This document shows, in pieces, positions 22,901-64,000 of a stretch of DNA of 64,000 nt (positions within the stretch are counted from its first letter, which is position 1; each line of letters opens with the position of its first letter). A program made the translations under genes and the position numbers. The DNA is taken from the NCBI RefSeq assembly GCF_000003815.2, contig NC_049983.1:25034617-25098616 (forward strand), written 5' to 3'. Under the pieces are notes generated by a model. The model was not told the DNA's origin, did not search any database, and saw only the letters and a list, made by a program, of their open reading frames with translations. This stretch comes from Branchiostoma floridae (taxonomy: Eukaryota > Chordata > Leptocardii > Amphioxiformes > Branchiostomatidae).

Positions 22901-23364
22901 GCAACTGGATATGGTTTTGGAAACGGTCGGACGTTTCGGATAGAATCCACTATCCTTCGTCAGTGACAGTTCTTCTTACGTAGTCCAGTCTAAGGAGACC
23001 TTCTGTATTAATTAAGGAATAGCGTATTAAGGTAAGGCGTAGTAATAACCTTTAAGGACCGCAGAAGGTGCTGGTCGGTGTCTTCCCCAGTCCTTTCCAA
23101 GACGTGCACCAGCAGCGCGCTCAGTCTCGGGTAATCCTTCTCCAGCGAGGCGTTACGGAACTGCCTGAGCCAGTCCTCGGGCGGGATGGCGCCTGCCCCC
23201 GCCGGGATCTCACCCTGCCCCCGGGGGTACTCCGACACGAGAGGAGACCTCTCCGCAGTGCCTCCGTGCGATGTAACCAAAACAAACGCCTCCCACAAAC
23301 ACACCAGTCCCGTGGATAACATAACCACATTGGGAAAATCCGCGAAGTTCAGATGGAGAAACAT
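10948..23364 (-). CDS. Tentative secreted helical polypeptide with basic tail (three exons in phase)
   Basis: The function is not recognised. Three minus-strand exons fit together: 23050-23364 (ATG at 23364, or 23322), 14272-14343 and 10948-11061 (stop). All junctions are phase 0; the second exon has a good pyrimidine tract with CAG and a CAG/GTAAGA donor, the third follows ATTCCAG. The first donor (AAG/GTTATT) is weak. The joined product would be 166 residues: a hydrophobic signal-like segment (about 16-33), a proline/glycine spacer, amphipathic stretches around PEDWLRQFRNASLEKDY and ETYWEGLHEQVKQIMYQLGL, then a very basic tail (PRKRKRKERRKGPR). There are no cysteines after the signal segment, and two N-glycosylation sequons (NAS, NET). 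That suggests a hormone- or cytokine-like helical factor with heparin binding, or a nuclear protein if the signal is not real. Additional exons in the long introns may be missed. Confidence 0.45.
11400..12200. repeat. Dispersed repeat fragments inside the long intron
   Basis: Repeated phrases such as 'GGTAGGTGTGTAGCGGTTGT', 'ATAACTCAAAATG' and 'CCTAGCGACTTGTTTTGGTACTGCA' recur in this block and, inverted or diverged, at 14380-14590, 16920-17500, 18300-18560, 23690-23790 and 45230-45960. They belong to a common element bounded by ACCTCCATGAAA-type ends. There is no coding sequence. From 12200 to 13880 nothing further is recognised. Confidence 0.45.
13883..14205. repeat. Foldback MITE family F3, copy 2
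   Basis: Ends AAGGCCATGTTGATTTAGTTATATGGATGGCATC and GATGTCATCCATATAATCAAGTCAACATGGCCTTA type inverted repeats, with an A/T-rich interior. It lies 66 bp from the candidate exon at 14272-14343. Confidence 0.75.
14713..15910. repeat. Tandem repeat block: about 266-bp units, then about 65-70-bp units
   Basis: The phrase CATCCGTGGG...AATATATCCATCATCATCAC begins at 14715, 14981 and 15248, a period of 266-267 bp. Each unit also contains TCTTTCCCGGCCTTGGTTTG and CCTGTCCTTGGTGCTGAACAC. From 15655 to 15910 only the 'CCTGTCCTTGGTGCTGAACACTTTCCGT' part is amplified, about four copies. No coding frame persists through the units. Confidence 0.8.
16053..16110. repeat. GATTA/GATTG pentanucleotide microsatellite
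   Basis: Perfect GATTA units followed by GATTG and GATTTG variants. Confidence 0.85.
16610..16800. repeat. MITE family F4 (ATACCCCCTTCACATTAGGCG ends), copy 1
   Basis: Long inverted arms: ATACCCCCTTCACATTAGGCGCC, ATCGATCGGACGACGAGTCTGCGAGCTC and TTACGAGGAGGCATGACCC on the left are mirrored on the right, leaving a short central loop (ACGAAGAAATGGC). A sister copy is at 39682-39864. Confidence 0.8.
17648..17936. repeat. Foldback repeat, G/C-rich
   Basis: TAACCTGGAATCC, GGCCGGGCTACC and CCGGGGTGATC...CACCCGGTAGGA on the left pair with TCCTACCGGGTG, GATCACCCCGG, GTAGCCCGCCC and GGATTCCAGGTTA on the right. Probably a MITE; no coding frame. The DNA from 17937 to 20260 contains only further dispersed-repeat fragments and no recognised gene. 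Confidence 0.55.
20266..20790. repeat. Diverged repeat with duplicated CCCCGGTTTGGAAATGTG segments
   Basis: A segment reading CCCCGGTTTGGAAATGTGG(C)GTAGGCCTAAGCTC occurs near 20547 and again near 20717, and a related CGGTCGGGCCCCGGTTTGGAAATGTGACG occurs near 39993. The CGGACC / GGTCCG motifs at 20295-20355 are inverted. The element type is not recognised. From 20800 to 22315 nothing else is recognised. Confidence 0.4.
22316..22465. repeat. Foldback MITE family F5 (AAGATACGCCAAATAGCAATTACTC), copy 1
   Basis: The segment TAGACGTCCAGGTAATAAGATACGCCAAATAGCAATTACTCAAGCAACTTGATATG is followed by an inverted CATATCCATTGAGCAATCGCTATTTGG. Relatives at about 22850-22975 (one arm) and 24636-24790 (both arms). 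Confidence 0.55.
22679..22818. repeat. Foldback MITE family F6, copy 1
   Basis: GGCATAAGATAGTATCAAAGCTGGCCAAGG pairs with CAGCTTTTGATACTGTCTTATGATACC, with an outer CAGATT/ATCTGC. A second copy is at 24291-24445, where the ends read TCTCCAAGCAGATCCTACGG and TAGGATCTGATTGGAGA. Confidence 0.55.
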
Positions 23365-26045: not shown

Positions 26046-26312
26046 TTTCAACTTGAAAGTTCATCTGTGTTGGTAGAAGTCATTCTTGAAATAATTGAAC
26101 TGTAATTTCCAACACAAAAATTGTACTCACCCAAATTTTCACTTCCTGCAACCTATGATTCACTGCTCACTGAGTCACGTGTTCTGTCTGCATAACGTGA
26201 CGTCACGACAGCAGTGGATTGTTCATTCCTTGACAAAGACTGATGCTGTCCAGTCGAAAATTTGGGTGAGTCCAATTTTTGTGTTGGAAATTGCAGTTAA
26301 ACTATTTCAAGT
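26046..26312. repeat. Foldback MITE family F7, copy 1
   Basis: AACTGTAATTTCCAACACAAAAATTG...ACCCAAATTTTC on the left is matched by GAAAATTTGGGTGAGTCCAATTTTTGTGTTGGAAATTGCAGTT on the right. Copy 2, with shorter spacing, is at 59931-60108. Confidence 0.65.
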
Positions 26313-36536: not shown

Positions 36537-43641
<7,105 letters not shown>

Positions 43642-46317: not shown

Positions 46318-49300
46318 ATGGCCGACATTGGAAATTTGAAAATTCCGCCCGACCTGCCGCCAGAAAAGATGGCGGCCGCGGCGCCCGATTCATTCCCTGC
46401 GTGCCGGATCCCGTGTCTTCTCAGCCGCGAACAGCTCCAGAAACTCTGCGACAAGGAAGAGCTGACATTCAACGACTACGCGGGGCCCACCTGGACCGAG
46501 CTGGCTGTGGATATGAGGAAACTGGGGATGAAAATGGACGTTATTTTCCCTGACATGCCGAACATAGACTGTATCACGGTGCTGGACACCCCCAGCCCCT
46601 CCTCCGTGTCGTCTGTCAGTCTCACGGCGACTTCTTCCAGTTCTGTCGGGAACAACAACGCCAAGCTGCCCAAGACGGCCATGCTCAAGAAACGGCGCGT
46701 CTTGGACGAGGAGTTCGAAGTGGAAGAGATTCTTGATCATAGGCGTCGAGGGGTAGGTCCTCACATTTAATTTAATTATTATAAAATTTTATTAGGGGAC
46801 GGTTAGGCAAAATATTTTATCCAAAGAGTTACAATTAAGAGGTTGCATGTCAAAGAGCTGCATGCGAAAAATTATGCATAACCTACATATTTTGTCGCCC
46901 TACAACTTGCTAGAAAGGGGAACGGGTTTTCTGCGCGTTAAAAATCTGCGCGCGCGTTAAAAATCTGCGCGTTAAAAAATTAAGTTGTGCATTGAGAAAT
47001 TCTTAGGCTGAAAAATGTGACCCCATTATATGATTTTACATCTGTTACCTGAATTTTTGGTTTGAAAAGCTCCTAATTTTTAGGTCCCTTGGGAATAGGC
47101 TAATTTGCATATCCAAAAGATTTCAAAATCACTTGAATTAGACACAAATACATGGAAAAATTACTAGTGTGAGGCTTTATATCATAAGATATAACTGCTT
47201 GAGGCTTTTTTCCATTCTACAAGCTTCATTTCATCTTTTCTCAAGCAGATTGTTTCACATGCAAATATCAACCTTTGTTGCGCATTAAAACTTAATGTTT
47301 AAAAATCACTTTAAAACTCCTGGAAAGGGACATTTGTACTCTAGAATGCAACAATATGATACTTAATTTCATTTTGTGTTATCTTCTTCAAGCTTTTAAG
47401 TTTAAAACTGCAAAAAGTTTTCAAATCCCCAGGGAATCAGCTAATTTGCATATTTTAACGCGCAGTTTTTTAACGCGCAAGTTTTAACGCGCAAATTTTA
47501 ACGCGCACAAAACCCCAACCCCTAGAAAGTGTGATTTCAAAATAGAGAATTACATATTTGACAAATTTTACTGGAATTTTTGTAACTTTTCAACACCCCT
47601 TTCTTTTGCAAATTGGTTGTTGCATTGGTTGCATTGTTTGGCTTGAGACATTTACAATGCAACAAAAAAGTCAATCCCATGCTTAAAATGAATGACAGTG
47701 AGTGACACCATTATATGTATAATATGACCATATGTTTATTGCCTCTTTTTGTGTATTCTTTGGTGGTCTTATTATTACTAGTACATGTATGTATAACTGG
47801 CAATAAAATACTACATAGCTGGACCATGTCAACAATTTTATAGGGCTCTCTGAAGTTTTCATAATACATACATGTAACCGTTACATAAATAATATGTTCT
47901 GAAATTCTGCAAGCTTGTCCCAAATTCAGGTCTGCTTTCTTATGTTAAAAAATAGAAAAGTTAAAGTTTGCCCATGCATCTACGGATGCGTAGGGTGGCG
48001 CCCATCTCCTCTTCGAAGCCCTTGGGCCACACATTTGTGCAAGTCACTACAGCAGGGCCCTGGGGCTGGTCCGCTGGTAGCAGGCTTTTAGCTAGGATTT
48101 TATAATAGGGTGTCCAAACTTATTGGTGAGTCGCGGTAAGTGACTTTTGTAGGGTGGTCTGGGGCATCCACCTTCCATGGTGCAGAGTTTTTGATGATTT
48201 TAAGTTAAAATAGTGCATTCTAAGGTATCCCAAGAGGCAAAAATACTGTTACAGATGTCACAGTAGAAGACTGTGACCACAGATGACCTTGTAGCATCCC
48301 TGGTCAATCAGAATTTCATGCTTGTCAGAGGATTTTCTCCCCTGGATAGGGCGTCCAGGGGCATCAAATTTCTTGTTATTCTGAGAAAAGGGCGTCCAGA
48401 TGACGCATTGACGCATGCCTGGCTAAAAGCCTGGCTGGTAGTGATCTGCCTTCTTACCCCCTGGTAATTGCACCAACTTACAAATTGAAATCCTAAATAA
48501 ACAAGTGAAAACTGTTCTACTGGTAAGCAGGAAAGTAAATAAAATCAGGCAAATTATAACAGGGTTGAACAAGTTTTCTAAAATCCACTTGTCCTATCGG
48601 GCAAGCACATAAAAAATGTACTTGCCCGAACCAATTTTTCACTTGCCCAAAATTCAAATGTCACTGTTACTAGTATATGCATTTTCACTTCCAGCAATGG
48701 AATTCTCTGTAGACAATTGCTTGATGCCATGACTGTAAAAAGTAACAAGTATATCAAAATTGCACTAAAATCAATGGAAAAATCTTACTTGCCCGATCGG
48801 ACAAGTGGGGTAGGACATGCACTTGCCCGAACAGCACTTTCACTTGCCCTGGACAATAGGGCTAGTGGACTTGTTTATCCCTGTTATAAGCTAACAACCT
48901 AGCTTCAGTACCATCCTCCGTAGTGACCGCTGGCTCGATACTTTCGCTGTGGTTAGCAAGCGAAAGTATTGAGCCAGCGGTCACTACGGAGGATAGTACT
49001 CAGGCTACCAGTGTCCAACCTTGCCCTGTCCTGTTTCCTTGTACAGGTCTTCTTTCTTACCCCCTGGTAATTGCAACTCACTTACAAATTAGAATCCTAG
49101 ATAAGTGAAAACTATTATACTGTTAAGTAGGGAAGTAAATAAAATACTAAGGTAAATTTTAAGCCAACGACCAGTATCCAATAGGGGTGGGTAATGGTAC
49201 AAAAATTTCAGGTCCAGGTCCGGTTCATGTCCAGAGGTCAACTTCAGGTCCAGAGGTCCAGGTCCGGACCTGAACCTGAACCTGATTCAGAATGTGAAAA

Positions 49301-52300
49301 CTTGTGAATGGACAATACTCAAAACAATGGTCAATTTTGTTACAAAGAAATCTGTTTTGTAAAATATTTGACTCCCACTAGCATTTTGAAATCCTGCAAA
49401 GCTAACTGCTTTGTATGATTGACTGTAAAACTTGGTAGAAATGACTATAATTTATTCTACCCTACTTCGCGCTTGTTATTTTCCCAGACTGACCGGTAAG
49501 CCCTAAAACGTTTGTAAATGCCTGTTCATATAATCTGTTCCTTTACCAATTGTCCTGTTTCCTTGTACAGGGCCAGGACTATTACTTCATCAAGTGGCAA
49601 GGCTGGCCTCCTTCCTACAACACCTGGGAGCCCAAGGAACACCTGCAGTGCTCCAAACTCATACGGGAGTATCACCTCAACCTCAAGAGGAAGAAACTCT
49701 CCAGAAAACACAAGAAGCGCAAGGACCAGCACCAGATCAGCGTCTTCATGCCGCTGGTCGCAAAACCGCTCTTCCCCCCGCTTACCGAGGACACGCTCGC
49801 CAAGTTCAAACAGAAACAGAGCCTCCTACTCTGGCAGGAGGATCTCAACCGGAAGTGTACGGATCCGGGTAGGATCGTGGTGGAAAACCACGTGGACCTC
49901 GAAGGCCCGCCGACGAACTTCATCTACATCAATGACTACAAGGCAGGGGAGGGGGTGGTTATACCGGAAGACCCCCTAGTCGGATGTTCGTGCACGGACT
50001 GTTTCGAGACGATGGAGGCCTGCTGCCCAACCCAAACCGGTGCCAAGTTCGCGTACACAAAGACGGGGAGGATACGGGTGCGCCCGGGAAAGCCGATCTA
50101 CGAGTGCAACAAGCGGTGCGCGTGCGGGCCGAAGTGCTCCAACAGGTTTGGTTTGGTTTATTGAGATCTCCATTACTCCTTAGTGACAAATCACTAGAAA
50201 ATATAACAACAGGAATGTACAACAAATTATAACTTTGAACTAACAGAAAGAAAACCCAGGGGGAACTGAAAATCAGTGATGGACATGTGTCAAGTAAATC
50301 AAATTAAAGCAACTGTGCTCCTTTTTATACAACAAAATGTCTACTGTAAATGCAGAAATGTTCGCGGTGGATTAATGCTTGCGGTTTTCGCGGTGGCCGC
50401 TTCACCGCAAATTTAAAACCACCGCGAACATTTTTCCATAACAGTAAGAGACTACAGTGCATGGTGCTACCACAAAATTAAAACCACTGCGAAAAGTCCA
50501 TTTTCCCGCTACCGCGAAAATCCCTGCGAACTTAAATGCATTTACAGTATTTGAATTGACAGAAAACTTGTTGATAACATTAACTCAAAACAGGGTGATA
50601 CAGAAGGGTCGTCTGCACAACATGGCCATCTTCAGGACGGCAAACGGCTGCGGCTGGGGCGTCAAGACACTGCAGAAAATCAAGATGAATACCTTTGTCA
50701 TGACTTACGTAGGAGAGGTACATTTTATCATTATGCCTTCCTGTTTTCTTGTATTGGTTTGAAGTATTGACTTACCCCAAATGTTGCGCCTTTGATAAGT
50801 TTGATATCTGAATTTTAAGAAATAGTCTATCTTACTTCTTAGCTTTGGTTTGGCTATATTGATATTTTGTACCATGATTTAAGAGATTGATACAAAACTG
50901 CATGCTCTAAAGGGCTCTATTTTCCCCAAAATAGATCTTATTGTAGAAACTGCAGGAAATCACTCAGGCAATATTAGACAAGTCAGAAGACATCTCGAAC
51001 TAGCAAACTCTAGCAAAATGTGCTTGTCCAAGGAGTGTGGGCCAACCTCCGTTTCAAACATTGTTTATCTTCTGTATCTGTATCTATATAGCCAATATAA
51101 CCACCCTTCACTTAACACATCAGCTTATCTTACCTCTTAGCATCTTTTTGACTCAGACAATTGGTGTTTGTTTCCCTCAGGTGATCACAAATGAGGAAGC
51201 AGAGGAGCGTGGGAAGGTGTATGATGAGAACGGGCGCACCTACCTGTTTGATCTGGACTACAACGATGAGGACGCCCCCTACACTGTAGACGCTGCTGTC
51301 CACGGCAACATCTCACACTTTGTCAACCATTCTGTACGTGTTCAAGCCTTATTGACATCAGTCATGAACTTACCTTCATACACCTGGTAGATTAACATGC
51401 ATACAAACATGATACAGTCATGAATATGTGTGCTTGAGGGTGTTTAATTCTGTATGTATGTATATTTTGTGTTTGTGTACTTACATGTGTGTGTGTGTGG
51501 GTAAAGAGAGTGTATATATACATTTGTATATCATAATTGTTTACTGACCCCTATAATGTTCATTGTCTGTAGATGTACAAGTGCATACAAAAATGTAAGT
51601 TGCATAATCAAAAGAGCTTGTACTGTAGTTTGTAGGCAACTTTTAGTGCCAATTTTACAATGCAGCTGAAGATACTTCCCCATAACATAAGACTGCACAA
51701 TGACATTGAAATACTTACTAGTATTCAGCACTTGTGAAGAGACTGCCCAATGATGAATAATGCCTTCTGTTCCCAGTGCAACTCCAATATGCCAGTGTAC
51801 AATGTGTTCATCAACTGTTTTACTTTTTATAATACAGACTGCCCATGTGAAGTTTTACCAATGAATGATGCCTTTTCTTCCCAGTGTAACCCTAACATGA
51901 CAGTGTACAACGTGTTCATCGACTGTCTGGACCCCAGGCTGCCTCACATCGCCCTGTTCTCCAACAAGGACATTGCAGCAGGGGAGGAGCTCACCTTTGA
52001 CTACCTCATGTATAAAGGTACGAACTCTGGCAAAAGGCTCTAAAGCTAAAGTTGCCCATACATCAGAACAAGGGGGTCATCCTCCTTGCAGGCCCGGTGC
52101 CCATCTCCGCTTCTAATCTAAGCCCTGGGCCACACATGGGTGCAAGCACTGCAGTAGGAGCTAGTCCACTGGTGGTGTGTTTAGCTTCCATACTCTTCCT
52201 CTTAGCAAAGAAAGAGTCTTTGGTATGACCCGACTTCAGTATCCAGTCTTCTTTGATGGTCTCCTATCCAAGTACTATCCCGAGATCAAGGGATTGCCTA

Positions 52301-55343: not shown

Positions 55344-56640
55344 GTAATTTTTAGTATGCATTGGTCTAAAAAGTGAGTAGAGAAAAGCCAAGGCGATATA
55401 CTGAGTATCTGCTTGGCTATGCTACTTGTGGGACAGTGGACTGGCCCAAGCAAACATGCAACCTGACTCTTCTTGTTACTCTCCAAGCAGAGGTTGGGCT
55501 AAGTCTTTTTTAGGGGACTTTATCGGAATTTTTATTGGAAGCAGTGATGGTTTCCATGGAGACAGAAACCTGACTGATTTTCATACTGATAAAGAATCCT
55601 GAGCTTCCATGTCTAATTTTCTTCTATATCTAATTTTCTAAATCAGGCTAGCCTCCACCAGGCCTTCCTACGGGGGTATGGGGATCATAGAATTCGGCAA
55701 AAAATCGGGTAATTGTCAGGGGGAGTCAGTCCACGCTAAGATTCATGTTCCCCTTTGCGGCGAAAACTTCCCTGGCAAATTATTCTCCCTATAATAGCCA
55801 GCGTACTCAGTCTGGTAGACTGCAATGGACATTGAGAGTTTGTATTGTAAGATACAGCACCGTACTGTACATGTAATTGATTAGAGAATACCTGAGCTAT
55901 ATCCCTGCATTCATGCCATAACCCAGTAACTATAAAGTGAAGATGGCTGCTCCATTTATTACTGAAAAATGGCAGCAAAAGTACAATTACAAAATGTGCT
56001 TGCCGTTACCCTCTCTCTCGCATCAAAAGACTTCACATCTTTCACCTGTACCTGACTTTATTCCGTACATTTTCATGTTTCTCCATCATCAATTCAACTC
56101 CATCCTAACACCCTTCCACAACACCTTTAGTCCATCATCCTTTGAACCCCGACACATGCACCGTCAAATAAAACTCAAAAGATCGTCTTTTTTGTGTACA
56201 TCATATCATAACGTAGCCACATGAACATTACATGTAAATAAAGGCAAATGTATTGAAACACGCAAACATAGACATTGCACACAGATATTTTTAAACTCTA
56301 AATGTTTTTGCAAAGGTTTACACAGAATTCCCCTTGGTTCATCCTTGACGTTTTTTCTAAAACAAATGTAGGAAGGATTTTTAGATCTAATTACAAACAC
56401 AAACATTGCGTGAGTTGGCTATCTTTCGACTTCTTCCTAGTGTAATTTACTTCGCTATCCAAGCTACAGCAAATCTACTTTCAAATCAAATTCTCGAGTT
56501 GTATGATCTTGCATAGCCAGAATGTAGATCGTTTTCTATGCTTGCACTCTACAGCCAGTCTGCTGCCATTGCTACACCTCCTGTGACAGCTAGGGTTTGT
56601 CTGAAACAGTCCGTTAGTGTTTGGGTTGTCTCAGTAGCTC
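55344..56640. other. Convergent intergenic region, no gene seen
   Basis: Lies between the 3' ends of SUV39H (+) and the AK-OAS gene (-). Minus-strand AATAAA signals occur at about 56058 and 55955. No exon recognised. Confidence 0.4.
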
Positions 56641-59600
56641 CTACAGCCCGAGTTTCTGAGCCCATAGCATGGTCTCTGTGTGGAAGGACGCCCAGGTACC
56701 CAGGAACTCCGCTACGTTGATGGCCGGGTTGGCGGGGTCCTGGACCACCGGAAGTGTCGTCATGTGTTCGATCCGGAAGCTGGGCGGTTCGTAGAATTTG
56801 TTCCAGGATAGCCTGAAATAACCCAAATATGGTCATATCACAATGTGCAGTCCAGTATGTCGATTAGATATGACCTGTCACCATATACGGTGTTTGGACG
56901 TGACGTCAAAGCCGCCATATTGGTTGGTTAAACCAAGACGGGGCGGTCTACAGGTTTAAACAATCAGCATGGCCGACAGCGCTTACGTCACAATCACGTG
57001 AGTGCAAAATTCCCTGTAGCACATAAATCTTTAAAATGGAGAAATAAGTCTCTCAATTGGGGGTTCATTTTGTAAAACGACAGAAAGAATTCAGTATAAA
57101 AAAAATTACAATTCAGTTGTCATCTTGATCAGTGTCATGGTCGTATAGTTGGGAATACAGTCCACCAGAAATGGATGACAAATTTATACTAGTACTACAG
57201 GATTTCTAAGATCTTCTAACGTTTATACAATATACATGTGACAGTGTATTGATAAACAGTTTATGACAGTGTATTTTGTCAGACCTTGTCATGGCGCGGT
57301 CCAGATCCTTGACGAGCGTGATGAAAGCGGACAGAGTCTCGGCCATGGTGGGGAACTCCAGCGGGTTCTCCGGTACCACTGGGTCCGGCTCTCTGCGGGA
57401 AAAACAGCGGGATGTTCGGTAAAATCCATGTAATTTAGAGGATTTCGTTATAAAGTTAAGTCAAGTCAAAATTATTGCACAACAATTGTAACAGGTACAA
57501 CGAAAGGCAAACATTTATATAACGCTACAGTGTAGATTTTTTTATCTGTCAACTAGTCGGTATCATGTTCAAGATCAATTTCAGAACATAATGATCGATC
57601 AGCTCTACTCGTTTTAATCGATGGTAGATCGATCTAGTCGATCGAATGTTGTTCGGTTGGTCGATCCGTTGTCTGATTTATCGATTGATTGATTGATTGG
57701 TCGTTTGATTGGTTGATTGATACCTCATGAAGAAGCCCTCCTCATCGATAGGCGGCGGCCGGATGTTGACCCCCTTGATGACCTGCGCGTTCTGGTAGGC
57801 CTTGACCACCAGCAGGGATAGCAGGTAGGAGCTGGGGCGGCGGGACTTGTCTGCCCAGTCCACGCCGTTACGCCAGTGCTTCACCACCTTTATCACATCC
57901 CTCACCTACGGGAAAAAAACAATCCAGGGTTACGGTAAGGTTTATGAGTGTGTGACAGGAGTAGGAGCTGGGGCGGCGGGACTTGTCCGCCCAGTCCACG
58001 CCGTTACGCCAGTGCTTCACCACCTTTATCACATCCCTCACCTAAAGGAAGAACAATCCAGGGTTACGGTAAGACATGAGTGTGTGACCGGAGGTAGGAG
58101 CTGGGGCGGCGGGACTTGTCCGCCCAGTCCACGCCGTTACGCCAGTGCTTCACCACCTTTATCACATCCCTCACCTAAAGGAAGAACAATCCAGGGTTAC
58201 GGTAAGACATGAGTGTGTGACCGGAGGTAGGAGCTGGGGCGGCGGGACTTGTCCGCCCAGTCCACGCCGTTACGCCAGTGCTTCACCACCTTTATCACAT
58301 CCCTCACCTAAAGGAAGAACAATCCAGGGTTACGGTAAGACATGAGTGTGTGACCGGAGGTAGGAGCTGGGGCGGCGGGACTTGTCCGCCCAGTCCACGC
58401 CGTTACGCCAGTGTTTCACCACCTTTATCACATCCCTCACCTACGGGAAGTGGAACAATACTAAAGGTATTATTTGATCTGTGCTATTTGTAAACTTCTA
58501 GATATCACAGGAAGACAATTCGTCAATGTATGACATTTTAGCTAAACAACATTTTATAAGAGTAAAGTTTTCTGTCAACGCAAAGAATGTACGATGCTAG
58601 TATATACTTTGTCTGGCATCAACAGTTAAACATTGGATGGCATCAACAGTTAAACATGTACAGATGCTGTGTGGTAGAGTATTGAACACTTAGATATGTA
58701 AACAAGAGATAAAATTGAATGACGGTACGTACATCTTCCTCCTGATCCAGGATGAACTGCCGTTGCCGTCTGGCTGCAGCCCAGGAGTACCTGTAACACA
58801 CAGGGCATCACAAGGTCTGTTACCATCACTAGGTCGTCATCATCAGACGGTCTGTTTTCATGTCTTTTTGAATTGTTCTAACATCAGAGCTGCTTTCCTG
58901 TCTTGAGCTTAGAATACATGTCTACGCCGTACTGTTAACCTTGCTTGATGTCTAACGTAAAGAGTGGCACTCAAGGAATTAAGTAAAAGAGACACAAGCA
59001 CGTGCATTTGCTTCCGACCATTTAAATTTGACTAGATATTAATCTTGAAGATAAACTTCGATAGATTTTTATGCATAGATAGAGGTAAACTGTCATTATA
59101 ATCAAATTAGTGTAACCAAAAACATTTGATTGGTTCTCGATGAGCCATGTTTTGTGGTTAACTGACGAAAACAAAAACCTTTACCTCTACTAGTGACTAC
59201 CTAGTCCCATCCTCATGTCTGAGGGTCGGGGACTATGTATAAAAAAAACGTATAAAAACTAAACTTTTAACACTATAGGAAATAGGATGACTTAGGAAGA
59301 GAATAATCTGCTGGCTGCTGTGTTCCTGTGTTTGTGAAATTGAAAGCTATTCCTGACACTGCATAAAACTAAACTTTTGAAAATGTAGGAAATAGGAGAA
59401 AGCCTACATTCTCCTGTTCTCGGAGTTGCGCTGGCGCATGCTCTCGTCATACAGCCTGGTGTAGCCGCCGGCTCGCTCCGACTCCCAGTCGTGCGTCAGG
59501 AACACAGTGAACTCGATCCCCTGGCACGTGAACCCCACAGAGAACTTGCTGGTGGTGAAGTCAGTGCACTCCGGGATCTGGCCTGGAAATGATAAAGGTA

Positions 59601-62600
59601 ACATTCAGGGTAACTAGTGAGATCGCGTGGCGCAACGGCAGCGTGTTTGGCTCAAGACCGAGAGGTCTCGAGTACGAAACCTGTCGTGTCACCGATTTTG
59701 TGCCCTTTGGAAAGGCATTTTCCATGGCTTTCCTCACTTAACTCAGGTGCAAATGAGTATCAGCTAGCCATACAGTGATTTACGTCATTTACCCGGACGG
59801 GAGACCTTGTCTTGTAATTAGCCATACGAAAGAGAATGCCACCCTGTAAGGGGCGGTTTAACCCCGCCGTGTGTAAGCATGTCGACCGATGATGATGATG
59901 AACATTCAAGTTAAACTGAATGTAGGCTTAGCTTGAAAGTTCATCTCTATTGGTAGAAGTAATTCTTGAACAAGTTGAACTGTAATTTCCAACACAAAAA
60001 TTGAGCTTACTGGCAAATTTGTTTAAAACTGTCAGAAATTTAGGTAAGTTCAATTTTGTGTTGGAAATTACAGTTAAACTTGTTCCAGAATGAACGTAGG
60101 ATTTTTTCCAAAAGTGCCACATCTCTATCATATAATGAGTATTGATCGTTCTGCATAACGCCATTTATAGTTTACTTTGCTCCAAATGACGCCAGATCAT
60201 TTAGTGCTTTGGGCGACGCTACGAATATTCCATAGCCATATATTTGCTATCAACCCATAGTCAGATTTGCGACACATTGCTCTATGGTTAGTATACCTAC
60301 GTCATGTTTTCAGGAAGCTATAGTCAGAGAACAGCTCTGCCTGTCCCAGACAAGAAAAACTACTACGTATTATCCACTAAAAAGATAGGTTTGATATAAA
60401 TACGCGTATTGTGACCTCTGACCTTTGTTGCAGTCCCTGATGAGAGCCTCCACTGCCTTCATCACTGACGGCATCCACATCACGTGACCTGCCTTCGGGA
60501 GCTCTGGAGGTACAGACAATAATCAACCAGTTAGTGGCTTCTTGCCGTTTTTGGCAACTTGTTTCGATAGTTGATTACCGAAAATGTACTATTTTACAGA
60601 TTTTTAAAAAAATTCATTGATCATTGAGAAACATGTTCACCATACATCTATCTATTTGGTCTTTGAAATAACCTCAATCAAAACTAAACTGTTTATGGCG
60701 ACAGTTGTCAGGATTCTGAATATTGAGGTTAACGGGAAAATAATGTAAGAGACCATTAAAAAATGTGGCCACAATGGCCGGGTGGCCCTTCTATGCAGAG
60801 GTGGGCATCAGTACAGGTTTGAATGTAACTAACAAAACAAGAAACATGCGGAAACCCCCACTAACCTATGCTTTGTTTACAAAGTTGTGAAAACAAACAA
60901 ACAAACCGACCTTTGCTGAAGACGAAGAGATCCACGTCGTTCCTGCTCTTGACCAGAGTGTCGTACCCGTACGACCCGCCAACCACAACCTTCGTCACGT
61001 CGAACGGCAGGGACGACTAATGGGCGAGAAAAGGTGAACGAAAGAGAGGATCAATTTACATATCAATAAATAAGGAATTTGTTCGTAGGTTAGAAGGTTA
61101 CTTATTAGACGTTTTGAGAAAAATGTTCTTACTTTGGTTTATGAGTTATACGGAGAATAGCCATTATTTAATGCGTTTGGATAAGTCATTTTTAACAAAA
61201 ACCGTCTCTTTCAATATTGTTGCTGGCAAATGTCGACCCAATATGCTGGCAAATGTCGACCCAATATGCTGTTAAGCTGCTAGTATGCTGTAGTCCTACT
61301 GATATTCCGCATAATATTTCATTCTTTTTTTTTTTTTTTTAGTACGTCTAGCAATTATTTCAACTCATTTTATTTGGAAGATGCAATAGGGTCACTTCGG
61401 TCATACATTCGCCGGTTCATTCATTCGCTCATTCATTCATTCACTCATTCAATACGATTACGTACCTCCAGGAAAGCGATCATCCTGGGCACGAGCTTGA
61501 TGAAGCAGTCCTGTGTCTCGGCGTCCGGCTGACACTCGGCCAGCAGACTGTTCACGTCGATCTTCTGGTACAGCGGCTCGTCAACCTGTAAAGGTGATTT
61601 TGCGGTTAGGGCTGTTCACTTATTTCTTTTTATTTGCTTTAGAACAAGCGGGGACAATGCGGCACTGCACTCAAGTTAGTAACTTTTACAGTGCCACATA
61701 CAGAGTACAGACAGAAGGTAAAGGCAGTATTTTCCCTCAAATCTTACGGTCCGTCCTAACGCAGCTTGTACTAACTGAACAAAACTGGCATTTTAAGGCC
61801 TTATGGAAGCTCATCTGTGTTGGTGGTTATCACAATGAAATACTAAACTGCAGGTATCAAATTTTCATTGAATATCGATCCACTTATACCTTTGTGTTGG
61901 AAGAAAGTTTGGCATTGCACTGTGGTTTACAGTTAATGTAAAACAAACAAACCTGCTCCTGGCGCTGGCTGGTCAGCAACGACCTCCAGCGGCGCTTGGA
62001 CCGGTATGTCTCCACGTCTATCTCCTCCAGGGTGGAGGCGCGGGTCTTGGACCAGTGCTGGGTAGAAGAACATACGAAATTTGATTTCAATCCATCAACA
62101 GGTTCAAAAGCAATGCTGACCACATATATAGATGTATCCTGAACACATACGTAAAAACTTGGGGCAAATTTGCCATATGCAGTGTGACTTTGCACCCCAC
62201 ACAGCACTTTTAGGAACGTTTTCTGGATACTGTTGTTCACCTGGTATTGATGCAAGGCATTTTGATGGTACTACTGACTACAAAAAGGAATAGACATGAA
62301 GAAATCAGGAAGGTCACCGAAACTACGACATGTATGTTCTGTCTTTAGAGCGCATCCTATGATATTGATGATTAGGATAAAATATGACGATGATACGTTC
62401 TCAAGGATGCTAAATTGCTGTCAGGCCACCGCCATTTATGCGTTCTACCTTATTCTAAGGTGATACAACAGCTACCAAAACTCCTGTTTGGCCATTAGTA
62501 GAGCGAGGTTCAAAACCATCGCCTTTTCTCCCTACCTGACTGGCCACAGTCCTGGTGGCGAGGTCCTTCAGCACGTTGATGACGAAGGTGGAGGCGGTGG

Positions 62601-63954
62601 GCTCGGCGGGACTCGGCCGGGGCACGCGGATCTGGGGGCCTGCCCCGTTACCGAGGTCAGGCAGGCCCTCGTGCATCCAGGCACCCGGTGCACGGGCTTG
62701 GTATGGAGAGGAACAGGAAAAACATTACAATCCATTGATCTACATGTAGTCAGGCAGGCCCTCGTGCATCCAGGCTCCAGGTGCCCGGGCTTGTTGTGGA
62801 TAGGAAGAGGAAAAAAACATCATAATCTATTGACCTAGTCTCCTTCGCAGCCTTTTAGCAGCGCTGGCTTTTATGATTTTTTTGTGGAAGCGCTAATTCG
62901 CGTTTTTCAACATGGATTAAGGTTCTTGAATGCGGGAAGAACCATGCCAATAAGCGCTCCCGCAAAAAATGAAAGCCGACGTCTCACTCTGTCAAGGAGG
63001 CTACCATTGACCTATTTTTTTCCAGTGTAGTCTATTCTCCTTCACAGCGCTTTCCCGTATTTTGAACGCGGAAAGGGCTGTTTAACGCCTGTGTGTGCTG
63101 TTCGTTGATTTGTGTCGTCAATGTAGCGAGTATGATAAGCTTTGGTAACAACATGATCTTGCAGAGGTAGGTAATACAGGAGTCTGTAGCTTACCTGGCG
63201 CGGCCTCCATTGCAGTGATGGCCCCGACCACATCGGCGAAGATGGCGGTCACCTCGCGCTGGGCGTTGATCTGGACAGAAAGAAAGTGCGTGGCTTTTTA
63301 GTTTGGTTACATTTCAAACACATCAAATCATTTTTTTCTAACGCTGTAAATGTAATCACCATTATTTGCCATCTAACTTTCAAAATCTGTGTTAGATGGA
63401 TTGTAGAGCTAGAAAATGACGTTTTCTGTTTAATGTCAACTGGCAAGGTCTAAGTAGCTTTCGTGCAATTTCTGGGATCCTCTTTGAAAAAAAAATTAAG
63501 CTGGTATCCAATCTGTTGTGGATTGGATGGGCTCGTTACTTTTTCAGAGGACTGTAGGAGCTCTCCGCCGTCCCCAACAACTAGTCATGTGGAGTTGGAG
63601 CTTCTGATCCTCGCGATGTATCGTAAGCTAATCAACTCTAACCGCGTAAAACTACTACCGAACGCTAGAATTACCTGGACGGCGGATAGGTTCATTCATG
63701 GCTCCCGACGAGAGCCCGTCCAATCATCAACCTCAAGGAAAAACAGAGCTAGTCTTCCTTACCCTCCTGAGCTTCCCCTGCTTCTCGTAGTGCGCCACCA
63801 GCGGCTCCGTGACGGAGTAGAAGGTGTCCAGCCGCTTCTTGATGGTCGCCTCGTTGTCGTCTGCCCTGCCGCTGGTCTTGGCGCGACCCAGGAGACGCTC
63901 CGTCATGGTCTGGGCAGAACACTCGAAGTACAGCACGATGTCGCATGGTCGGAT
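56641..63954 (-). CDS. Adenylate kinase fused to OAS-like nucleotidyltransferase (5'-partial, 12 exons seen)
   Basis: Twelve exons join in phase to 511 residues ending at 56641: 63763-63954, 63195-63270, 62536-62696, 61953-62057, 61466-61585, 60911-61016, 60423-60503, 59408-59582, 58733-58790, 57724-57905, 57285-57392, 56641-56812. Residues 1-90 are the C-terminal part of an AK1-type kinase (MTERLL, TSGRADDNEATIKKRL, VTEPLVAHYEKQGK); its P-loop must lie past 64000. A linker (90-178) leads to an OAS fold: VVVGGSYGYDTL (GGS 231-233), D245 and D247 in NDVDLFVF, KVVKHW (364-369), PSSYLLSLLVVKAY and LPVVQDPANP near the end. OAS enzymes sense double-stranded RNA and make 2-5A from ATP; AK1 enzymes interconvert ATP, ADP and AMP. 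The third catalytic Asp is Thr306 (GIEFTVFL), so the OAS part may be inactive. No stop follows the kinase part; a donor (GCCAG/GTAAGC) does. Confidence 0.88.
57665..57722. repeat. GATT microsatellite abutting a splice donor
   Basis: Imperfect GATT/GGTT units run up to the donor of the exon ending at 57724, which reads GTATCA on the minus strand. Confidence 0.75.
57824..58446. repeat. 133-bp tandem array of an OAS-domain exon edge (five copies)
   Basis: The 3' splice site plus the first about 80 bases of the exon that encodes VRDVIKVVKHWRNGVDW occur five times. The exon starts are at 57905, 58041, 58174, 58307 and 58440 (periods 136, 133, 133, 133). Only the 57905 copy continues into the complete exon with its donor at 57724. 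The outer copies have acceptor CCCGTAG, the middle three CCTTTAG. The units are nearly identical, so the expansion is recent or is being homogenised. Confidence 0.93.
59620..59893 (+). mobile_element. tRNA-derived SINE, second family
   Basis: The head GATCGCGTGGCGCAACGGCAGCGTGTTTGGCTCAAGACCGAGAGGTCTCGAGTACGAAACC has an A box (TGGCGCAACGGCAG) and a diverged B box (GTCTCGAGTACGAAACC) at tRNA-like spacing. The tail ends in GATGATGATGATGAA. It lies in an intron of the AK-OAS gene. It is a SINE rather than a tRNA because the body continues for about 190 bp and the acceptor stem does not close. Confidence 0.7.
59931..60108. repeat. Foldback MITE family F7, copy 2
   Basis: CTTGAACAAGTTGAACTGTAATTTCCAACACAAAAATTGA on the left is inverted as TCAATTTTGTGTTGGAAATTACAGTTAAACTTGTTCCAG on the right. 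Confidence 0.8.
62656..62840. repeat. 93-bp tandem duplication at the 5' edge of the AK-OAS linker exon
   Basis: GTCAGGCAGGCCCTCGTGCATCCAGG...GGGCTTG...GGAA.AGGAAAAA...AATC.ATTGA is present at 62656 and, with about 15 percent change, at 62749. The upper copy has a usable AG/CCCGGGCACC acceptor and encodes ARAPGAWMHEGLPD, as the real exon does, but then meets a TAG stop. Confidence 0.8.
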
Positions 63955-64000
63955 CTGTAGGAAGTCACAAGGATAAAATTGTCATCATTTTGTCGTGTTG

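Follow-up and report, generated by a model that had tools for sequence, protein, structure and literature searches.

INTRODUCTION

Most discussion of OAS-type domains concerns the production of 2-5A, and OASL is a known case in which such a domain was kept after the loss of catalysis. The catalytic triad of the OAS enzymes is described as consisting of three carboxylates, namely, D74, D76, and D147 in pig OAS1 (PMC13129866). In human OASL, for which no nucleotidyltransferase activity was reported, the third carboxylate position (position 152) is occupied by Thr, and the paper on the OASL structure names this Thr as part of the reason for the inactivity (PMC4446440). According to the same source, the site that holds Phe70 in OASL is invariably occupied by Ser in the active isoforms of OAS, whereas poly(A) polymerase has Phe or Tyr there and cGAS has Tyr (PMC4446440). 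In this study, a 64,000-nucleotide window of the genome of the lancelet (amphioxus) Branchiostoma floridae was analyzed (contig NC_049983.1, forward-strand positions 25,034,617 to 25,098,616). Its minus strand contains a candidate gene, at window positions 63954 to 56641, that would join an AK1-type adenylate kinase to an OAS-like domain with the same Thr at the third catalytic position. This gene had been proposed in an earlier reading made from the sequence alone, here termed the sequence-only reading.

Information on domain fusions is available for related nucleotidyltransferases. Of the animal cGLRs, which are a family apart from OAS, 87% were reported to carry no added domains, and the fusions named are those with ANK, those with TPR, and multi-cGLR fusions (PMC9980059). 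Adenylate kinase is not mentioned in the available portion of the main text of this survey, nor in that of a eukaryote-wide survey of CD-NTases (PMC10732462). Publications retrieved with the names of adenylate kinase and OAS were, judged by their titles and the beginnings of their abstracts, apparently proteome or expression studies. For lancelets, the reported rate at which new domain pairs arise exceeds 10 per million years, and their exon shuffling is described as the fastest among the animals studied, with a preference for phase 1-1 exons (PMC4284660). Mirages, which are repeats that lie over exon boundaries, have been described in the amphioxus globin and Adh3 genes, where regular splicing is reportedly undisturbed, and their copy number was reported to be variable (PMC3087553).

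RESULTS

Gene model

The 12 exons of the sequence-only reading were rebuilt on the minus strand and joined. The rebuilt gene agrees with the earlier proposal of 12 minus-strand exons that stay in frame over 11 GT-AG introns: it extends from 63954 to 56641 in one frame, and its spliced form of 1536 bases encodes 511 residues followed by a TAG stop codon (56643-56641). Each of the 11 donors is GT and each of the 12 acceptors is AG, and there are no ambiguous bases between 56000 and 64000. The features of the gene are the following.

Exon 1, 63763..63954, minus strand: AK1-type adenylate kinase, model residues 1 to 64, equivalent to about residues 109 to 172 of human AK1
Exon 2, 63195..63270, minus strand: end of the kinase, residues 65 to 90, without a stop; donor CAG/GTAAGC (the slash marks the exon end), phase 1
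Intron 2, 62697..63194, minus strand: 498 bases, separates the kinase from the linker and contains a duplicated acceptor
Exon 3, 62536..62696, minus strand: linker, residues 90 to 143, without a known domain; phase 1 in, phase 0 out
Exon 4, 61953..62057, minus strand: linker, residues 144 to 178; contains no Met
Exon 5, 61466..61585, minus strand: N-terminal part of the OAS-like domain, residues 179 to 218
Exon 6, 60911..61016, minus strand: GGSYG motif at residues 231 to 235; catalytic D245 (60938-60936) and D247 (60932-60930)
Exon 7, 60423..60503, minus strand: OAS-like domain, residues 254 to 281
Exon 8, 59408..59582, minus strand: OAS-like domain, with T306 (codon ACT, 59508-59506) at the third catalytic Asp site
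Exon 9, 58733..58790, minus strand: OAS-like domain, residues 339 to 358, with R349 aligned with OAS1 R195; weakest coding score
Exon 10, 57724..57905, minus strand: OAS1_C region, with KVVKHW at residues 364 to 369
Exon 11, 57285..57392, minus strand: C-terminal lobe of the OAS-like domain, residues 419 to 455
Exon 12, 56641..56812, minus strand: C-terminal lobe of the OAS-like domain, with QDPANP (LDPADP in OAS1) and the stop codon TAG
First AATAAA/ATTAAA hexamer 3' of the stop, 56057..56062, minus strand

A codon score was trained on the other exons, tested on each exon left out, and compared in the three frames. The exon series exceeds what chance would give: every one of the 12 exons scored above 0 in the model frame, and this frame was the best of the three for 11 of them, the exception being exon 9, which has 19 codons (4.7 versus 6.0 bits). 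The GC content of the exons ranges from 0.57 to 0.71 and that of the introns from 0.35 to 0.48, and the GC content at third codon positions (GC3) is 0.85 overall and 0.63 to 0.94 in the individual exons.

Adenylate kinase part

Residues 1 to 84 correspond to the C-terminal portion of AK1 in the PDB alignment, in which model residues 6 to 84 are aligned with AK1 residues 114 to 192 (E = 2.8e-21). The best NCBIfam model for this part was TIGR01360, of which profile positions 104 to 186 of 188 are covered. Its score of 93.0 bits, against 77.2 bits for TIGR01359, favors AK1 over UMP-CMP kinase, and both scores lie below the whole-protein cut-offs, half of the kinase domain being outside the window. 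The equivalents of AK1 R128, R132, R138, D140, D141, and R149, the functional roles of which are assumed here, are all kept in the alignment (6 of 6). The assignment of this segment by the sequence-only reading is borne out.

The kinase domain is complete at the end of exon 2, yet no stop follows. Instead, the sequence continues into the consensus donor CAG/GTAAGC, and translation through this donor would add 25 residues before a stop. As had been noted from the sequence alone, the kinase ends without a stop at 63195 in phase 1, and exon 3, which begins at 62696, has the matching phase. For comparison, six bacterial kinase stretches from four loci were aligned. Three of these, two at locus L001 and one at L002, reach the domain end, and a stop is close by in all three; the other three end earlier.

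OAS-like domain

The OAS-like nucleotidyltransferase comprises residues 179 to 511 (exons 5 to 12), and its fold is recognized by two Pfam families that both score above their cut-offs, namely, OAS1_C (PF10421; 42.8 bits, cut-off 19.9, best stretch residues 324 to 398) and NTP_transf_2 (22.4 bits, cut-off 21). Human OAS1 was matched at E = 5.1e-10, the OAS1 structures scored 39.0 bits, and the PDB alignments begin at residue 198 for OAS2 and at residue 215 for OAS1.

D245 and D247 are aligned with D75 and D77 of OAS1, so that the first two catalytic Asp residues are kept. The third site, opposite OAS1 D148, is T306; in the alignment, all four OAS1 sequences shown (one from human and three nearly identical ones from pig) have Asp at this site, and OAS2 domain I has Glu. 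The triad of the OAS enzymes is consequently incomplete (D245, D247, and T306). The complete OAS-like domain described in the sequence-only reading is full length but lacks its third catalytic carboxylate. Because this residue is Thr, as in the inactive human OASL, 2-5A synthesis by the domain is unlikely.

A second key site also resembles OASL. Y234 is aligned with S64 of human OAS1, which was equated with the Phe70 position on the basis of the V67G and N72K mutants, and an aromatic residue is thus present where OASL has Phe70. The OASL groove for double-stranded RNA is formed by R45, K63, K66, R196, and K200; using a numbering between OASL and OAS1 that is partly inferred and leaves R45 unmapped, the residues at the four mapped positions are K227, V230, R349, and L353. 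The likeness to OASL is one at two key sites (T306 and Y234) and not one of membership, since the match to the whole OASL structure is weak (E = 0.0016). No ubiquitin family is present among the four Pfam matches of the model, and the OAS lobe, in exon 12, is the last part of the protein.

Further copies of either domain were not detected in the window by tblastn, in which the three matches outside 56641-63954 had E values of at least 5.8. Among bacterial and archaeal contigs, 14 stretches matched the pattern searched, of which four encode relatives, and none of these four aligns with the OAS part; no stretch of the viral contigs matched the pattern searched.

Linker and proposed kinase-OAS junction

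The linker exons gave no Pfam match and no PDB match up to an E value of 1. Exon 3 scored 38.6 bits in the model frame, against 0.3 and 2.7 bits in the other two, and exon 4 scored 26.9 bits; because of these scores, both exons look coding in the frame that a fusion needs. Intron 2, at 498 bases, is inside the range of the other ten introns (331 to 840). Of the 38 AG sites tested after the exon 2 donor, eight leave the kinase frame open to 62536, and only two of these give phase 0 out, which are the modelled site at 62696 and one at 62639. Use of 62639 as the start of exon 3 would keep frame and phase and remove 19 linker residues, and this variant was set aside, as it leaves the conclusion unchanged. 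The kinase-linker junction is in phase 1, but exon 3, which is entered in phase 1 and left in phase 0, does not belong to the 1-1 class.

One spliced gene that joins the AK1-type and OAS-like parts is the best reading of these data. It is supported, though not proved, by the continuous frame, the splice sites, the coding score of the linker, the absence of a kinase stop, and the ordinary length of intron 2, all of which back what the sequence-only reading had proposed.

Duplicated acceptors

The sequence-only reading overlooked that the acceptors before exons 3 and 10 are both duplicated. Tandem repeats across an intron-exon boundary, as in the amphioxus mirages, were found at two places.

Mirage 1, 62656..62837, minus strand: tandem duplication with a spacing of 93, covering the 3' end of intron 2 and the 5' end of exon 3
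Mirage 2, 57823..58450, minus strand: 4.7 copies of a 133-base unit, covering the 3' end of intron 9 and the 5' end (head) of exon 10

The upstream copy of mirage 1 contains a decoy acceptor with an exon start at 62789. Its use would append 16 linker-like residues to the kinase, with a stop after MHEGLPDYM. Mirage 2 provides decoy exon starts at 58440, 58307, 58174, and 58041, each of which truncates the protein. All five decoy acceptors therefore truncate the product, and one of them (62789) leaves the kinase without the OAS part. Over the first 81 bases, the four additional exon 10 heads differ from exon 10 by synonymous changes only; at the next codon, which is the edge of the repeat, Leu is kept in three copies and replaced by Ser in one. 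Across the 84 bases compared, the copy at 58307 does not differ from that at 58174. The possibility that the four heads are real tandem exons was rejected, because the spacer after a GTAACC donor would have 26 bases and be too short for an intron. By analogy with the amphioxus mirages, the copy number of the exon 10 head may vary between haplotypes. The occurrence of such repeats would by itself point to a lancelet as the source of the window.

Other features of the window

An inverted repeat lies within intron 7 (59962-60091). Because of a related 72-base stretch at 26052-26123, it is perhaps a small mobile element. On the plus strand, the stretch 46345-51995 contains Chromo and Pre-SET matches at 49568-50146, which we take to resemble SUV39H; coding-like stretches at 46345 and 51178 gave no Pfam match, and these as well as the one at 51894 may belong to the Chromo/Pre-SET stretch. 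A carboxylesterase-like gene is present on the minus strand at 36627-42059, with PF00135 in three of the five stretches scanned. Phospho_p8 (PF10195) was matched at 1256-1489, and a minus-strand stretch at 23056-23262 had a strong coding score (46.9 bits) and no Pfam match.

DISCUSSION

We consider it about two-thirds probable that the locus is one cephalochordate-type gene encoding a chimera of an AK1-type kinase, a linker of about 90 residues, and a full-length OAS-like domain, of which the last would be a pseudo-nucleotidyltransferase. The OAS part would be of the OASL kind in having lost 2-5A synthesis, and it may serve as a nucleotide-binding, nucleic acid-binding, partner-binding, or scaffold module that positions an active adenylate kinase or controls its activity. 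In addition, the duplicated exon 3 acceptor could give rise to a kinase without the OAS part.

Several observations weigh against this reading. The window shows only the C-terminal part of the kinase, the N-terminal half with the P-loop lying past base 64000. The acceptor of exon 3 is AAG, and its decoy, the use of which would break the fusion, looks about equal to it (pyrimidine fraction 0.75 versus 0.81 for the modelled site). The four decoys of exon 10, with fractions of 0.75 to 0.81, look no worse than the modelled site (0.75), and splicing to any of them would cut the protein short. Hexamers of the type AATAAA/ATTAAA were not found in introns 2 and 3, but only four of the 11 introns contain one, so that their absence is weak evidence for a continuous transcript. 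As for the OAS part, the whole-domain match to OASL is weak, as mentioned above, the mapped groove positions are basic in two of four cases, which does not support binding of double-stranded RNA, and the retention of D245 and D247 makes a residual or altered activity possible.

The alternative that survives best, which we nevertheless regard as unlikely, is that of two adjacent genes on the same strand, one AK1-like and one OAS-like. The kinase would end by intron retention or through the decoy at 62789, in which case a kinase-only product ending in ...ARAPGAWMHEGLPDYM would result. The OAS-like gene would start at ATG 62676 in exon 3, giving a protein of 415 residues, or in a first exon outside the model. 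This ATG is the only Met before exon 5 within the modelled exons, and it lies 3' of an in-frame stop (62727-62725), as a separate gene would have it. By the rule for start contexts, however, T at -3 and C at +4 make it a poor start. The open stretch 5' of exon 4 in intron 3 lacks a Met in the portion displayed beyond its stop, and its coding score is not notable. Two genes would moreover be separated by a gap of 498 bases that resembles the other introns, and the exon 3 acceptor is in the phase that fits exon 2. The hexamer data also speak against a transcript end in introns 2 or 3, a weak point given that seven of the 11 introns lack such a hexamer. In a transcript using the decoy, many junctions would lie downstream of the early stop, a situation that is generally expected to trigger decay. 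Two separate genes were accordingly held to be less likely than one, on the evidence of intron 2, the linker, and the start context.

Within a single gene, a bolder reading of the OAS part is conceivable, although improbable, namely, that of a regulatory sensor on the AK1-type kinase that makes no 2-5A and gates the kinase in response to nucleotides or nucleic acids. Such a sensor would retain the GGS motif and the two metal-binding Asp residues, and foreign RNA or the nucleotide state would be coupled to the ATP/ADP/AMP ratio in the vicinity, with no second messenger in between. The duplicate of the exon 3 acceptor would then switch between the kinase alone and the kinase with its sensor.

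It is also quite doubtful that the locus is decaying or mis-assembled, that is, a pseudogene in the making or two loci joined by an assembly error, an idea that overlaps in part with that of two genes. The five truncating decoy acceptors would fit such a state, and the identical copies at 58307 and 58174 can also come from assembly. Against this, all exons are open, all splice sites are GT-AG, GC3 is 0.63 to 0.94 by exon, and ambiguous bases are lacking. The mirages described in the amphioxus globin and Adh3 genes, furthermore, reportedly leave regular splicing intact (PMC3087553).

Very improbable, finally, is the coupling of nucleic acid sensing to ATP/AMP balance that the sequence-only reading had suggested, in which a 2-5A-type synthetase would be active and have an adenylate kinase of its own. 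In its favor, all six of the kinase residues examined are kept, as are the GGS motif and the first two catalytic Asp residues out of three. Against it, V230 (Val) and L353 (Leu) stand where OASL has K66 and K200, by a mapping that is partly inferred, and a full synthetase with AMP recycling was rejected because of the Thr at the third catalytic Asp, a change named among the causes of OASL inactivity (PMC4446440). Between a 2-5A synthetase that carries its own AMP recycler and a kinase tied to an OASL-like domain that is probably inactive, the latter is the likelier.

If the preferred reading of a kinase joined to a pseudo-nucleotidyltransferase is true, this would be a second dead OAS domain, with the same exchange of Asp for Thr and a metabolic kinase as its partner, which would suggest that such domains have on more than one occasion been put to new use as sensors or scaffolds. 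Should the kinase be active and respond to a ligand of the OAS part, there would be a direct link from nucleic acid sensing to the adenylate balance. If, in turn, the gene is merely a lancelet fusion of low conservation, it would be one of the numerous new domain pairs that have been reported in lancelets. Because domain pairs are gained very fast in lancelets, the fusion of an adenylate kinase with an OAS-like domain would be unsurprising in such a genome, and it may be short-lived.

Comparison with known systems

With the cGLRs and the CD-NTases of CBASS, the OAS-like domain shares the superfamily, and the CBASS oligonucleotide cyclase model NF041116 scored 37.1 bits against model residues 213 to 401, far below its cut-off of 200 but close to the 39.0 bits obtained with the OAS1 structures. 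AK1 provides the best PDB matches and, with TIGR01360, the top NCBIfam model of the kinase part, and it differs in that the gene analyzed here has no stop at the domain end and continues into the linker and the OAS-like domain. Multidomain kinases such as AK5 have other partners.

Parallels exist with OAS1 and OAS2, as the OAS1_C and NTP_transf_2 domains, the GGS motif, two catalytic Asp residues, the KHW motif, and a QDPANP sequence in place of LDPADP are all present. OAS2 domain I has Tyr after GGS as well, and its aligned row also departs from the triad. The differences are the missing third catalytic Asp and the attached kinase. The amphioxus mirages share with those of this gene the tandem duplication of an intron end together with an exon head, whereas one of the two described here is located at a domain junction, and splicing to any of the additional acceptors would disrupt the fusion.

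At key sites, the closest counterpart is human OASL, which likewise combines an OAS fold with a foreign module and has Thr as the third carboxylate and an aromatic residue at the Phe70 site. The predicted protein differs from it in keeping D245 and D247, in having basic residues at only two of the four mapped groove positions, and in its weak match to the OASL structure. The foreign modules are also different, in that OASL carries two ubiquitin-like domains at its C terminus, whereas the predicted lancelet protein carries an adenylate kinase at its N terminus.

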